From Halobacterium litoreum (GTDB lineage: Archaea > Halobacteriota > Halobacteria > Halobacteriales > Halobacteriaceae): a DNA stretch of 64,000 bases. The notes below the pieces were generated by a model. It was not told the origin of the DNA. It did not search any database and saw only the letters and a program-made list of their open reading frames with translations. The translations under genes and the position numbers were made by a program. The stretch is from NCBI RefSeq assembly GCF_021233415.1, contig NZ_CP089466.1, forward strand, positions 496,001 through 560,000. The letters run 5' to 3'. Within the stretch, counting starts at the first letter, position 1; each line of letters starts with the position of its first letter. Of this stretch, positions 7,876 through 13,515 are shown in pieces.

Positions 7876-8190
7876 CTAACTGTAGTCCCGCCAGCGCGCA
7901 CCGCACTCCTGACACTTGAAGAACCGCGTCGGCGGTTCGTCGGCGCTCCCGGTCTGCTTGATGGTGTACCACGCCTCGTCGTGGCCGCACTCGGGGCACG
8001 TCTCCTCGGCCGTCGGCTTCCCCTCGAAGTTCGCGTCCTCGCTCGTCTCGATGACGTCGCTGGTGTCCTGTTCGGCCGTCTTCACGAACCCCTCGTCGCT
8101 CTCGCTTGCGGCGCTCGCGCCGCAACTCGAACACACCATCTCGTCGCCCTGCTTGTGCATCATCGACCCGCACTCGTCGCAGAACTGCAT
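7876..8190 (-). CDS. tfs: Transcription factor S (TFIIS-like cleavage factor)
   Basis: A 104-residue archaeal TFS. The N-terminal zinc ribbon has C4, C7, C20 and C23; an acidic linker follows; and the C-terminal ribbon has C65, C68, C93 and C96. The catalytic acidic pair is D84-E85 in the GSADEPPT loop. TFS inserts this loop into RNA polymerase and stimulates cleavage of backtracked transcripts. It is the last gene of a leftward run, eight bases after the cysteine-motif protein, and so is probably co-transcribed with two or three unknown genes. Length and all eight zinc ligands match the family. Confidence 0.95.
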   Translation of the reverse strand: MQFCDECGSMMHKQGDEMVCSSCGASAASESDEGFVKTAEQDTSDVIETSEDANFEGKPTAEETCPECGHDEAWYTIKQTGSADEPPTRFFKCQECGARWRDYS

Positions 8191-8198
8191 ACCCGCGG

Positions 8199-8723
8199 CT
8201 ACTCGTCGTCGGCTGAAAAGTCACTCGCCTCCATCTCCCGGCGCTCCGCGACGACTGGGCAGTCCGCCACGCGGAACTGCTCCGTGTCGACTTCCGCCTC
8301 GATTGTCGTGCCGTCGTGCGTACAGCCGAGGTGGGGCGGGTCCGCGAAGTGCGGACAGCCGTGACAGAGGCGCTTGTCCACGACGGTCACGTCGCGGTTC
8401 GCGTCCGCCGCCGAGTCGGTCGCCGGCGCCGTCTCGACCACCGGGTCGTCGGCGGCGTCCGACAGTTCCTCCCAGACCGCGTCCTCGTCCACCTCGCCGA
8501 CGGACATCTCCGAGAACAACTCCTCGAACTCGTCGTCGTCGCGGCCGCGGCGCTCGTCGACGTCGTCCCGGAGTCCCGACAGCGGCGCGTCCTCGCCCGG
8601 CGGGCTGCTCGCCGTGCTCCCCGGCCCGACTTCGCCGGACGAGCGCTCGCCGCTCGGCGTCTCCGCGTCGTCCTCGCGGCTCTCGTCGTCGCTCGGCCGG
8701 TCCCGCGGGTCGTCCTCACTCAT
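8199..8723 (-). CDS. Acidic haloarchaeal protein with C-terminal Cys/His cluster
   Basis: A 174-residue protein I do not recognise. Residues 1-110 are a highly acidic, probably disordered region rich in D, E, S and P. The C-terminal part carries C120, C123, C134 and C155 with neighbouring histidines (CHGCPHF, GCTHDG), which looks like a metal- or cluster-binding module. The gene starts inside the end of the preceding gene (8-base overlap) and is followed eight bases later by tfs. Translational coupling and a shared function in transcription or RNA metabolism are therefore plausible but unproven. Confidence 0.8.
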   Translation of the reverse strand: MSEDDPRDRPSDDESREDDAETPSGERSSGEVGPGSTASSPPGEDAPLSGLRDDVDERRGRDDDEFEELFSEMSVGEVDEDAVWEELSDAADDPVVETAPATDSAADANRDVTVVDKRLCHGCPHFADPPHLGCTHDGTTIEAEVDTEQFRVADCPVVAERREMEASDFSADDE

Positions 8724-9699
8724 CGCGAGCCTCCTCGGTCGTCGCGTCCGCCAGTGGTTCGTCCACGTCCACGACCTCCGCTTCGGCGCGCGCCGTCGGC
8801 TCCGGGTCCGGGTCCGGCGCCACGTCGGAGTCGTCGCTCGCGCCCTCGGCGTTCTCCTCGACCATCGCCTCGAGGCTCTCCTCGTCGCCGCCGAGCCACG
8901 CGCCCTCCGACGCCTCGTCGCCGAGCCACTCGCGGCTCGCGGGCAACGCCGGCTTCGTCCCCGTCTCGAGGGTGTGAGCGCCGAACCAGCCGGTCTTCGC
9001 TTCGACGCCCTCGAAGGTCGCGCCGCAGAACGGGCACTCCGGCGCCGACAGCAACGCCACGCTCACGGACTGCTCGCAACTCTCGCAGGCCGCCACCTCG
9101 ACGCCCTCCACGTTCGCCTCGCGCTGGAGTTGCTCGGCGCGCCCGCGCTGGGCCTCCGCCGCCGCGAGCGCCCGCACCGACTCCCGCATCGACAACACCG
9201 CGGTCGCCAGCGTCGTCGTTCGGTCCCCCAACTCGTCGGTCTCGTCCCGGAGGTAGGACAATACCTCCTCGAAGTTCTCGAACCCGGCGTCGAGGCGGCC
9301 CGACATCTCCTCGACCTCCGCGGACAGCGCTTCGAACTCCGAGGCCACGCGCTCTGCCGTCTCGGCCGCGTCCTCGGCGGTCGCTTCGACGTCGGCGTGC
9401 CCGTGGTCCGCGGGCGCCTTCCCGTCGGCCTCCCGCTTCACTTGGATAACGCGCTCGCGGACGTCCTGAATCTTCTCGTCGTACTCCCCCTCGACCTCGT
9501 CCAGTCGCGAATCGAGGTCGTCCTCCGTCACGAGGCCCGCCGCGAGTTCGTCGTCCTCGACGCGCCGATACGCCGCGACGACTCGCTGTAGAAGCTCCTC
9601 GGTGCTCACGCCGAGGTCGTCGGCGCGCTCCCCCAGCCACGCCGCCGCAGGCCCCTCCAGCGTGGCGCTCTCGACACCGTCCGACGTTCCGTCGGCCAT
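8716..9699 (-). CDS. Coiled-coil protein with zinc-ribbon motif, unknown function
   Basis: A 327-residue protein. Residues 1-50 are helical (WLGERADDLGVSTEELLQRV), about 60-195 are predicted coiled coil with heptad-like acidic repeats, and CESC (205-208) with CPFC (222-225) forms a probable zinc ribbon. An acidic, proline- and alanine-rich tail follows. The start ATG at 9699 is preferred to one seven codons upstream because MADGTSDG begins the acidic N-terminus. The stop overlaps the next gene by eight bases. It belongs to the run ending in tfs. I do not recognise it as a characterised family. Confidence 0.82.
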   Translation of the reverse strand: MADGTSDGVESATLEGPAAAWLGERADDLGVSTEELLQRVVAAYRRVEDDELAAGLVTEDDLDSRLDEVEGEYDEKIQDVRERVIQVKREADGKAPADHGHADVEATAEDAAETAERVASEFEALSAEVEEMSGRLDAGFENFEEVLSYLRDETDELGDRTTTLATAVLSMRESVRALAAAEAQRGRAEQLQREANVEGVEVAACESCEQSVSVALLSAPECPFCGATFEGVEAKTGWFGAHTLETGTKPALPASREWLGDEASEGAWLGGDEESLEAMVEENAEGASDDSDVAPDPDPEPTARAEAEVVDVDEPLADATTEEARDE

Positions 9700-9742
9700 T
9701 CGTGCGGTCTTTGCACGCACCGGCCTTAACCGTTCGGCTCGA

Positions 9743-10582
9743 TTACCGGATCTTCCGCACGTCGCTCACGTCGAAGCCGGCGTCGTGAATCTCGGTCTCG
9801 AACTGCACGATGTCCTCTTCCTCCAGTCGGCTCAACACGCCCCGGAACTCGCGGACGAACATCGTCCGCACGCGCTCGTTCCCGCCGCGCTCCCAGCCGA
9901 ACTGCACGGTGCCGTCCACCGAGGTCATCAGGCTCCCGTACTCCTCGTCGGTGACGGCGTCCCGGGTCAAGTGCAGGAGGATGAGGCCGTCCCACTCGCG
10001 GGCCGCCTTCCGCAGACCCTTCAGCGTCAAGACGACGTCGCTGAACTCCATGTCCCGCTTGCGCGCGCCGATGAGGTCGGTCAGCGAGTCCACCACCACG
10101 AGGCTCCCGTGGGCGTGCTCGTCGAGATAGTCCGCGAACCGCTCCAGGACGTCCCGGCGGTCGTCGTCGGTCTGCCCGAGGTCCCGAATCGAGCGGTGTT
10201 CGCCCTCGTACCACGCCCGCGGCACGGGACTCAACTGGAAGTACTCCGGCGACAGGTCGGTGAACGTGATGGCGTCCATCCCCGCGTCCACGATCTCCTC
10301 GTCCATCGTGAACGCGATTTCGCGGCGCAGTTCGCTCGCGTCGCCCGTGAACGACACGTAGTGGATGTCCTCGGGCGGCACCGCGTTCGCGTGCAGGTCG
10401 CCGTAGTGCAAGTCGAAGAGGTCCGGCGCGGCCGAGTGCAGGGCGTTCAACATCGCGCTCGTGTAGACGAACTCCCGCGCGCCGGCGCCCGCCTCCCCCG
10501 ACAGCAACACGACGCTGCCCTCGGGCGCGCCGCCGCCGATGCGGGCGTCCAACCGCGAGATGCCGAACGGAATCGTCGCCAT
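9743..10582 (-). CDS. RAD55/KaiC-like RecA-superfamily protein with degenerate P-loop
   Basis: A 279-residue single RecA-fold domain. The N-terminal FGISRLDARIGGGAPEGSVVLL is the typical KaiC/RAD55 entry, and the Walker B strand is SLVVVDSLTDLIG. The Walker A position reads GEAGAGARE, where arginine-glutamate stand in place of the lysine and threonine, so nucleotide hydrolysis is doubtful. Haloarchaeal members of this group are often annotated HTR-like proteins. It lies 43 bases upstream of the coiled-coil zinc protein and may head the tfs cluster. The role is unknown; sensing or scaffolding is a guess. Confidence 0.83.
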   Translation of the reverse strand: MATIPFGISRLDARIGGGAPEGSVVLLSGEAGAGAREFVYTSAMLNALHSAAPDLFDLHYGDLHANAVPPEDIHYVSFTGDASELRREIAFTMDEEIVDAGMDAITFTDLSPEYFQLSPVPRAWYEGEHRSIRDLGQTDDDRRDVLERFADYLDEHAHGSLVVVDSLTDLIGARKRDMEFSDVVLTLKGLRKAAREWDGLILLHLTRDAVTDEEYGSLMTSVDGTVQFGWERGGNERVRTMFVREFRGVLSRLEEEDIVQFETEIHDAGFDVSDVRKIR

Positions 10583-10635: not shown

Positions 10636-11601
10636 CTACTCCGTCCTCGCACCCTCGTTCCGGGCCTCGACGACGCGCACGTCGCCGCCCACGCCAGCCT
10701 CGTCCAGCGCCAGCCACCCCGCTTCGGCCGCCGCGTCCGCCCGCGACGCGTCGGTCACGCCGTACACCGCCGGCCCCCACGAGGACTGCCCCGCGCCCGC
10801 GACCGCCGGATTCGACCCGAGTTCGTCCACGAGCGCGCCCGCCGGCGGCCGGTAGACGCCGCCCTGCTCGTCGGCGTACCACGCGCCGTTCAATCGACCG
10901 ACCTCCGCGACCGCCGCGCCGAACGCGTCAACGTCCCCGGTCGCCAGCGCCGGGAGGACGCGCCGCGTCACCACGCCCGAGATGCGGTCGGCGAGCGCCG
11001 GGTCCGCCGACTCCACGGTCGAGCGCATGCTCGCGTCCTCCTCGCCGTCCGCCTTCCCCGGTTCGGTGTCGGGCAACACCAACACGAACCGCCAGTCCTC
11101 GGGCACGTCGTGGCGCGCCGCCACCGGCGGCACCGCCCACTCGCCCCGCGGCGGGCGCTCGGCCGTGAACCGCTCGGTCGGGTGGCCCGCGTCGAACACG
11201 AACCCGCCGGACTCGAACGTCGCGACGCCCACGCCGCTCCGCCCGCCCCGCCCGAGGCGCGGCGCTCGCTCGCGGACTCGGGGCTCCTCGTCGTACGCCC
11301 GCGCGACCGCCGCCAGCACCGACAGCGAGAGTTGCGTCCCCGACCCGAGGCCCGTGTGAACCGGGAGTTCAGACTCGACGCGCAGGTCGACGCCCGGCAC
11401 CCCGAGCAGGTCACACGCCCGCGCCGCGTACTCTCGCGCCCGCTCGTGGTCGCAGTGCACGCCCTCCGCGCGCGACGCCTCGACCGCGACCCGCGGCTCG
11501 TCGAGTCCGACCCCGAGACTCCCGTACAGGCGCTCGCGGGCCAGCGAGAGGTTCAGGAACCCGAAGTGCAAGCGGCCCCCGGACTCCACGCGCACGCTCA
11601 T
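10636..11601 (-). CDS. GHMP-kinase-superfamily enzyme, beta-RFAP synthase family
   Basis: A 321-residue protein starting with RVESGGRLHFGFLNL, the opening characteristic of beta-ribofuranosylaminobenzene 5'-phosphate synthase-like proteins. Its GHMP ATP-binding loop is VHTGLGSGTQLSLSV (81-95). The C-terminal motif AGAGQSSWGPAVYGVTD matches the third GHMP motif. In methanogens the family makes the first committed intermediate of methanopterin from p-aminobenzoate and PRPP. In a haloarchaeon the exact product is uncertain. It is spaced 53 bases from the KaiC-like gene on the same strand. Confidence 0.87.
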   Translation of the reverse strand: MSVRVESGGRLHFGFLNLSLARERLYGSLGVGLDEPRVAVEASRAEGVHCDHERAREYAARACDLLGVPGVDLRVESELPVHTGLGSGTQLSLSVLAAVARAYDEEPRVRERAPRLGRGGRSGVGVATFESGGFVFDAGHPTERFTAERPPRGEWAVPPVAARHDVPEDWRFVLVLPDTEPGKADGEEDASMRSTVESADPALADRISGVVTRRVLPALATGDVDAFGAAVAEVGRLNGAWYADEQGGVYRPPAGALVDELGSNPAVAGAGQSSWGPAVYGVTDASRADAAAEAGWLALDEAGVGGDVRVVEARNEGARTE

Positions 11602-12879: not shown

Positions 12880-13310
12880 GTCTCCTCGAAAGCCCCCGGG
12901 TGCTCGGGTCGGGAGCACCGGAAGACTTGCTTCGCTCGTCTTCCGAGGTCACGCTCGGTTCCCTCGCGTGACCCTCGCTGCGCGCGTCGCTCACTCCGTT
13001 CGCTTCCGTGCTTGCGTCGGCGTGTTTCCCCGAGCACCCGGCCCCTTTCAGTCCCGGAAGACTCGCGTCGCTCGTCTTCCGACCTTCGCGGTCGCTGCGC
13101 GACCCCTCAGTCCCGCCCGTGCCGGCTGGTCAGTCGGGTGACGTTGGTCGGCTGACTGGGAGGCCGGTAACTCTGGTGGGTTGAAAGGGCGAGGCACGCT
13201 CGGCGACGGCGGCCGACGAAAGCACCGCAGGAGTGAGCGAAGCGAACGACGAGGAGCGCATGGAGGCCCCCGAGCCGAGCGTTCCGAGGGCTTTCAGGAG
13301 TGATTGCTGA
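12880..13310. repeat. Gene-free region of hairpins and inverted repeats
   Basis: The 721-nt gap 12795-13515 has no convincing gene. Its first part contains two copies of a hairpin with arms GGAAGAC/GTCTTCC (12920-12944 and 13056-13080). The inverted pair GGGTGCTCGGG (12898-12908) and CCCGAGCACCC (13029-13039) encloses the first hairpin, and a third related block at 13264-13298 again ends in CTTTCAGG. The GAAAGCCC/GGGCTTTC edges recur in both orientations. The pattern resembles haloarchaeal intergenic palindromic elements. Short open frames here are arginine-rich and lack protein-like character. Confidence 0.65.
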
Positions 13311-13340
13311 CGACGACAGGGGCAGCGTCTGAGTTCCACA

Positions 13341-13482
13341 CCGGCAACATCTGTTCGGTCGATTCCGGTGGGCCGCCTCCACCGTCGTTCCGGCGGGCCA
13401 CCGGCAGCATCTGTTCGGTCGATTCCGGCGAGCAGGTCGCGCCGTCGCGCTCCCAGTCGCCGGCAACATCTGTTCGGTCGAT
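13341..13482. repeat. Three direct repeats with 59-60 nt period upstream of ilvD
   Basis: Near-identical units occur at 13341-13368, 13401-13428 and 13460-13482. All share CCGGC(A/G)(A/G)CATCTG followed by TTCGGTCGAT; the first two continue into TCCGG, so each is bounded by CCGG. Copies one and two differ at one base. Starts are spaced 60 and 59 bases. The intervening 32-36 base segments are unrelated. The third copy runs directly into the TATA-like element of ilvD. These may be operators or upstream activating sites. Confidence 0.8.
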
Positions 13483-13490
13483 ACACCTTA
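13481..13490 (+). promoter_or_regulatory. TATA-like element of ilvD
   Basis: ATACACCTTA lies 26-35 bases before the ATG at 13516, as expected for a leaderless transcript, and overlaps the last two bases of the third upstream repeat. A protein bound to that repeat would sit over the BRE region. Confidence 0.5.
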
Positions 13491-13515
13491 ACACGCACAG
13501 CCCCCTCGAACGTGC

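Follow-up and report, generated by a model that had tools for sequence, protein, structure and literature searches.

The archaellum is controlled by ArlH (also called FlaH), a KaiC-type partner of the ArlI-type ATPase and of the ArlJ-type platform. We know of no ArlH equivalent for the PilB3-type pili. None is named in the excerpts that we consulted. According to those of PMC4858521, the on/off control of archaeal type IV pili is little understood, Haloferax needs its PilB3 locus to make PilA-based pili, and two KaiC families of Methanomicrobia, arCOG01172 and arCOG01173, are possibly co-transcribed with VirB11/TadC genes. Furthermore, the accessible part of PMC13286277 links the KaiC-like protein CirA to motility and shape in Haloferax. 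Here, we analysed a stretch of 64,000 nucleotides from Halobacterium litoreum (NZ_CP089466.1, positions 496,001 to 560,000 of the forward strand), referred to below as the window, which carries a cassette of three genes, KAI, CC and CH. We propose that this cassette, which encodes a lysine-less KaiC-fold protein and two uncharacterised partners, probably belongs with the PilB3 pilus. The cassette was undescribed in the titles and abstract openings covered by our literature search, a coverage that did not extend to a 2017 survey of KaiC-like ATPases, the likeliest place for a dead family to be mentioned.

In the window, the cassette consists of KAI (279 aa, 9743..10582), CC (327 aa, 8716..9699) and CH (174 aa, 8199..8723) and is followed by the 104-residue transcription factor S, TFS (7876..8190), which we judge to lie outside the module. 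All four genes are on the minus strand, as are the protein and promoter features located below, and the successive spacings are 43, -8 and 8 bp. KAI matches PF06745 (39.2 bits, cut-off 26.6) and TFS proves to be a true transcription factor S (TIGR01384, 74.7 bits, cut-off 64.75). No Pfam or NCBIfam family is matched above its cut-off by CC or CH, the latter giving no match up to an E-value of 1. A preliminary description of this DNA had read four packed leftward genes: a RecA/KaiC-fold protein with the Walker A variant GEAGAGARE, two acidic proteins with CxxC motifs and no recognised function, and TFS. All of this was borne out, and both CC and CH appear rich in Asp and Glu by eye. One gene upstream of KAI stands a further member of the conserved string, absent from that description, a beta-RFAP synthase family protein, hereafter RFAP (10636..11601, minus strand), which scores 170.3 bits against TIGR00144 (cut-off 113.5) and stays under the stricter NF040726 cut-off of 328.

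We searched 145 genomes of Halobacteria with KAI, CC, CH and TFS and excised the loci; up to four named loci (L007-L010) are added to this sample in the counts of P-loop columns, TFS residues, promoters, the CC-CH overlap, Cys and KAI displacement. KAI is present in 122 genomes, CC in 121, CH in 121 and TFS in all 145. The raw count of KAI at an E-value of 1e-3 was 123; the match in G134 (E 7e-4, 28 residues within its ArlH gene) was scored absent because it is a piece of ArlH. Halobacterium, Halorussus, Haloparvum, Halolamina and Haloarcula are among the named relatives that have KAI. The order conserved in the excised loci is RFAP-KAI-CC-CH-TFS. A junction was counted as kept when its two genes lie on one strand less than 600 bp apart, in genomes with both genes inside the fetched loci. 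RFAP-KAI is kept in 91/96 genomes, KAI-CC in 105/121, CC-CH in 120/121 and CH-TFS in 94/112; all four junctions are kept in 58 genomes and the KAI-CC-CH-TFS string in 82. Given these counts, the four-gene arrangement exceeds chance, and the comparison of neighbourhoods proposed in the preliminary description thus finds the string held across the class. CC and CH form a pair that is almost never split, the start of CH overlapping the end of CC in 88 of 105 near pairs.

While the cassette occupies the RFAP-TFS interval in most sampled Halobacteria, it can be missing as a block. Indeed, the 23 KAI-less genomes are also devoid of CC and CH, with three exceptions: G119 keeps a CC remnant of 123 residues, G014 has a CC-like gene at another place, and G121 has CH where its contig ends. 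TFS is kept and lies 66-514 bp from RFAP in 14 of these 23 genomes (514 bp in G119, with the CC remnant in between); the distance is 730-1959 bp in three further genomes, and RFAP is absent from the fetched stretch in six. On a tree of RFAP and TFS (424 columns, 106 genomes, after omission of the 39 whose fetched loci had no RFAP or TFS), the 17 KAI-less tips fall into 12 clades from which KAI is absent throughout; counted by Fitch parsimony, they need nine changes, where shuffled labels average 15.9. By taxonomy labels, KAI presence is mixed within four genera (g7, g9, g30 and g46) and within family f8. We also noted two loci (L137 in G091 and L138 in G025) in which KAI and CH flank a CC shortened to some 60 residues, possibly an intermediate of decay; other members of the genus have lost the whole cassette. 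Away from the cassette, a second KAI-like protein (31-33% identity) is found in G016, G051, G055, G083, G084, G102, G106 and G115 of genus g10. CC-like genes likewise occur elsewhere in G014 (L228) and G066 (L229), with second CC-like matches in other genomes of family f4; we regard L228 and L229 as paralogues or remnants, and they may form a paralogous coiled-coil/zinc family.

Judging from its PF06745 match and from the structural matches of its predicted model, KAI is a protein of KaiC/RecA-like fold: the structures closest to the AlphaFold2 model (mean pLDDT 88.3, pTM 0.87) are KaiC (Z 22.8 over 216 residues) and FlaH/ArlH (Z 21.8). The P-loop GEAGAGARE (residues 29-37, 10472..10498) departs from the Walker A consensus GxxGxGK(T/S). 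Across the 122 halobacterial sequences, the Lys position is occupied by Ala (100), Ser (15) or Gly (7) and the following Thr/Ser position by Arg (121) or Pro (1). Lys is found at its position in none of 142 proteins (0/122 halobacterial, 0/20 from the methanogen-side loci presented below), and neither Thr nor Ser follows in any of the 142; the lysine loss pointed out in the preliminary description is thus fixed. The substituted loop is itself conserved in Halobacteria, with Arg after the Lys site in 121/122, then Glu in 119 and Phe in 122. For the profile and structure alignments, sequences were filtered by identity and length; they hold 70 KAI, 85 CC and 60 CH sequences, the last taken from the 90 that passed the filter.

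The catalytic Glu pair of KAI is replaced as well. Its first position holds Thr (117), Ser (3), Ile (1) or Ala (1) in Halobacteria and Thr (17), Ser (2) or a gap (1) on the methanogen side, and its second is mostly Ala, Asp, Ser or Thr in the former and Arg or Lys in the latter. The Walker B Asp is retained in 121/122 halobacterial and 18/20 methanogen-side sequences. Also retained, in 118/122 and 14/20 respectively, is the Arg of the K-x-R motif, which in the window is Arg247 (9842..9844), aligned with the trans-acting Arg of KaiC_arch_3. The role of this trans Arg is established for KaiC and related rings, and KAI may put it to use. As read from the alignment columns, KAI is a KaiC-fold pseudo-ATPase that has lost the P-loop Lys and the catalytic Glu.

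Among described families, ArlH shares the KaiC fold with KAI (FlaH chains, Z 21.6-21.8) and gives its best NCBIfam match by score, at 47.2 bits far under the NF052589 cut-off of 215. Like ArlH, KAI would team up as a KaiC-type protein with a PilB/ArlI-type ATPase and a PilC/ArlJ-type platform. However, KAI has no P-loop Lys, the ArlH of the source genome is a separate gene (G000:C1:1380757) and the two proteins differ in their distribution among genomes. Against KaiC_arch_3 (TIGR03880), KAI scores 14.9 bits for a cut-off of 249.45. This family stands in the same gene cluster as KAI on the methanogen side and is co-inherited with it in Halobacteria but, unlike KAI, it largely keeps its active site. 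Indeed, in 28 KaiC_arch_3 proteins (19 methanogen-side and 9 halobacterial) the P-loop Lys, the Walker B Asp and the trans-acting Lys and Arg of K-x-R are present in 28/28, the Thr/Ser of Walker A is kept, and the Glu pair reads Glu (22) or Asp (6), then Glu (24), Gln (3) or Ser (1). The halobacterial KaiC_arch_3 frames are long, with at least 332 codons from stop to stop (L255, L267-L271 and L273); the one that was read has an acidic N-terminal extension, and the methanogen-side protein read has none. The placing of arCOG01172 and arCOG01173 near VirB11/TadC, as given in the excerpts of PMC4858521, resembles the setting of KAI and KaiC_arch_3. Finally, KaiC of cyanobacteria and KaiC proteins of circadian type have the fold in common with KAI (Z up to 22.8), whereas KAI is a single domain of 279 aa that has lost the P-loop Lys and the catalytic Glu pair.

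The partner with which KAI is co-inherited is the PilB3 pilus ATPase. Among the 145 Halobacteria, KAI and a strong PilB3_C match agree in 143 genomes (121 with both, 1 with KAI only, 1 with PilB3 only, 22 with neither; p 9e-24 by a Fisher test, which here and below ignores shared ancestry). KAI and KaiC_arch_3 above its curated cut-off agree in 142 (120/2/1/22 in the same order, p 1e-22). With ArlH, taken as a looser control, agreement falls to 116/145 (103/19/10/13, p 8e-5), and on this looser match we set aside a link to the archaellum through ArlH. The best PilB3_C match reaches at least 53.5 bits in 122 genomes and is at most 44.6 bits, or missing, in the other 23. Genomes with a strong match can contain weaker ones too, in open frames of roughly 620 and roughly 1,000-1,500 codons. 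KaiC_arch_3 passes its cut-off in 121/145 genomes, the next best match in any genome scoring 137.6 bits. The two PilB3 mismatches are G121, whose locus runs off the contig end, and G144. Because they are inherited and lost with the pilus motor, KAI, CC and CH most likely help to run or regulate adhesion pili, not RNA polymerase.

The KAI profile, at an E-value of 1e-15, matches 84 of the 196 genomes searched in the phylum, and 56 of these lie outside Halobacteria; we call the loci outside Halobacteria methanogen-side, a label that reflects our own assumption about their hosts. In 20/20 such loci, the lysine-less KAI adjoins a KaiC of one blastp cluster. This neighbour matches the KaiC_arch_3 query at an E-value of 1e-40 and has an intact P-loop in 19 of them, the twentieth (L253) belonging to the same blastp cluster, and one representative scores 332.8 bits as KaiC_arch_3 (cut-off 249.45). 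Moreover, in 17/20 loci a PilB-like family (T2SSE with PilB3_C) and a PilC-like family (T2SSF), each named from one Pfam-scanned representative, lie upstream on the opposite strand. Outside Halobacteria, CH was found in 0/124 genomes at an E-value of 1e-4 (best 23 candidates per genome scored) and CC in 0/163 at 1e-8 (best 12 candidates per genome scored). In genome G021, KAI (39% identical) stands 9 bp ahead of KaiC_arch_3, with no CC or CH. From the methanogen-side loci and G021, the KAI-KaiC_arch_3 pair seems to predate the cassette, CC and CH apparently having joined within Halobacteria. Outside Halobacteria, PilB3_C is matched in 54/56 KAI-positive genomes and in 63/107 KAI-negative ones, some of which are less complete; KAI therefore implies PilB3, and the reverse does not hold.

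Altogether, we lean towards the cassette being an accessory module of the PilB3-type pilus, the euryarchaeal type IV pilus of adhesion, that works through a mixed KaiC ring. KAI would assemble with the intact KaiC_arch_3, whose gene is at another chromosomal site in Halobacteria and adjoins that of KAI in methanogens, into a mixed ring or a pair of rings, in which KaiC_arch_3 would bind and hydrolyse ATP and KAI would give interface residues. By analogy with ArlH on ArlI-ArlJ, this assembly would dock on the PilB3-PilC3 motor and gate it. CC and CH would be partners confined to Halobacteria whose translation is coupled, and could serve as a coiled-coil/zinc adaptor or as a transcriptional output through the head of CC, which resembles a ribbon-helix-helix (RHH) domain. 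That such a dead/live ring acts on the motor and that CC-CH serves it as adaptor or output is a tentative proposal to which we would give somewhat less than an even chance. A role of sensor or scaffold for the degenerate ATPase, already suggested in the preliminary description, fits the evidence.

Several observations weigh against this assignment to the PilB3 pilus. In the source genome the cassette lies about 1 Mb from pilB3, KaiC_arch_3 is also elsewhere, and the pilB/pilC adjacency of KAI seen in 17/20 methanogen-side loci is not found. The split between presence and absence of PilB3 is a gap in bit scores (53.5 vs 44.6), not a tree. G144 retains the whole cassette with neither PilB3 nor KaiC_arch_3, and G066 combines PilB3 with a KAI that carries some 80 extra codons inserted in frame, but lacks KaiC_arch_3 and has no CC in the cassette locus. 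Since PilB3_C ATPases occur in so many KAI-negative relatives outside Halobacteria (the 63/107 above), KAI is not required for every PilB3_C-type pilus. At three methanogen-side loci out of 20 (L250, L252 and L254) no PilB/PilC-like neighbour is seen, and the KAI of L254 carries a Lys one position past the usual P-loop site. Lastly, the accessible part of PMC5198076, which lists Haloferax mutants affected in adhesion and motility, describes none of the genes as KaiC.

CC combines an RHH-like N-terminus, a coiled coil, a zinc ribbon of four Cys and an acidic tail (AlphaFold2 model, mean pLDDT 80.8, pTM 0.45). The RHH-like part, at about residues 9-53 (9541..9675), is proposed from weak profile matches to the RHH antitoxins EndoAI (E 0.0064), VapB26 and MazE6 and from helices 17-29 and 33-53 of the monomer model. 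A Foldseek search with the CC model returned nothing with E <1, its weak list including the RHH proteins CopG, MatP and Arc. Scanned singly, CC relatives match RHH_1 in 8/85 cases and the zinc ribbon DZR_2 in 8/85, and otherwise mainly coiled-coil families, among the first 25 of 165 families. Matches to SMC/Rad50-like NCBIfam models and to Tropomyosin, Apolipoprotein, FlaC and DUF7310 (17/85) were judged to be coiled-coil background. A motif D-x-R-x-R...KAP-x-DH-x-H spans residues 79-101 (9397..9465); D79 and R83 are invariant in 85 rows, and R81, A95, H99 and H101 are conserved in at least 90%. The ribbon, C205xxC208 and C222xxC225 (9025..9087), has its four Cys all present in 120/123 sequences. 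In the excerpts of PMC4858521, HP0958 of Helicobacter pylori is likewise a coiled-coil protein with a Zn ribbon linked to a surface filament, an analogy only, whereas CC has an RHH-like head and is found only in Halobacteria. CH joins an acidic N-terminal part to a C-terminal module C120-x2-C123...PP...C134...C155-P (8259..8366), whose four Cys are all present in 124/124. One of 60 CH relatives weakly matches NNH1 (E 0.044), and a kinship of CH with ribosomal eL42 was discarded as not significant (E 0.16).

These features of CC raise the question of a purely regulatory role, in which CC-CH would regulate the transcription of pilin or pil genes, itself under the control of KAI/KaiC_arch_3, without touching the motor. 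The RHH_1 matches of 8 of its 85 members, the antitoxin matches at its N-terminus, its zinc ribbon and its acidic tail are what such a regulator might display. However, a simple RHH-like signature is seen in 32/85 rows only, the RHH matches are weak and the CC of the window has no Pfam match at an E-value of 0.01, and we hold this explanation to be somewhat unlikely.

The link to PilB3 could also reflect a shared lifestyle and no physical module, if KAI were part of a KaiC hub of general signalling, for timing, growth phase or cell shape, with pili in its regulon. The effect of the KaiC homologue CirA on motility and cell shape in Haloferax, as reported in the accessible part of PMC13286277, and the mild association of KAI loss with ArlH loss agree with this. 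The match of KAI to PilB3 is, however, far tighter than that to ArlH, and methanogen-side genomes place KAI and KaiC_arch_3 beside pilB/pilC-like genes; we consider such a hub unlikely.

As to transcription, TATA-like 4-mers at -38 to -21 were counted ahead of gene starts assigned by script, so that spacings are approximate. They are found for KAI in 38/126 sequences (9/126 in the control interval), for CC in 96/123 (8/123), for TFS in 81/120 (3/120) and for CH in 0/123 (2/123). An AT peak 25-28 nt ahead of the start reaches 80% AT for KAI, 61% for CC and 69% for TFS, and CH has none (33%). In the window, the promoter-like element upstream of CC is CCGAACGGTTAAGG (9724..9737), with TTAA at -30 to -27, and that of TFS is TTTT at -29 to -26 (8216..8219), inside the 3′ end of CH. 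From the AT peaks, the 4-mers and the CC-CH overlap, CC and CH are probably one transcription unit, and TFS is probably transcribed from a separate promoter located within the end of CH. Such an internal promoter isolating tfs is what the preliminary description had named as evidence against its own proposal, and the signal for it is one of sequence only.

TFS itself keeps D84 and E85 at 1.00 in 120 sequences; this Asp-Glu dipeptide of the C-terminal ribbon is presumably the catalytic pair. The source genome has three TFS-like matches, at G000:C1:1937783-1938085, 503882-504187 and 2377902-2378210 (L001, L002 and L003), two of which pass the family cut-off, the TFS of the window being second best; other Halobacteria have 1-5 matches to it per genome. 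The preliminary description had linked the cassette to RNA polymerase or RNA, and an accessory complex in which TFS is joined by CH and by CC, with its RpoP-like zinc ribbon and RHH-like head, would suit the CH-TFS adjacency in 94/112 genomes, the CC-CH-TFS order kept in 11 loci from which KAI is displaced and the weak likeness of the CC ribbon to RNA polymerase subunit P (E 0.008), but we reject it as the leading explanation and find it very improbable, for TFS is present in 145/145 genomes with or without the cassette, many genomes have no cassette between RFAP and TFS, TFS is preceded by a promoter-like element of its own, CH and TFS are non-adjacent in 18/112 genomes vs 1/121 for CC and CH, and co-inheritance tracks PilB3 instead. 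Of that description, the conservation and the fixed Lys loss thus stand, and the scaffold or sensor role fits. The link to RNA polymerase does not stand, and neither co-retention with TFS nor a shared transcription unit, the latter judged from the sequence alone, is borne out.

Elsewhere in the window, three copies of a direct repeat of about 49 nt, spaced 59-60 nt, lie at 13339-13506 (core GGCA[AG]CATCTGTTCGGTCGAT), with 82 and 65% identity to the first copy. A pair of 29-nt repeats, 93% identical and starting CCGGAAGACT, is located at 12918-12946 and 13054-13082.

Our analysis names five co-inherited proteins, KAI, CC, CH, KaiC_arch_3 and PilB3, for joint testing, and gives a likely context to two uncharacterised families, CC and CH, that are present in most sampled Halobacteria. 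It also speaks against the tempting link to RNA polymerase. It is conceivable, if still short of probable, that PilB3-type pili have an overlooked control ring of dead and live KaiC that predates the split between Halobacteria and methanogens, and that Halobacteria added CC-CH and moved the dead subunit between RFAP and TFS. If this is true, a KaiC switch would control pilus assembly as ArlH controls the archaellum.

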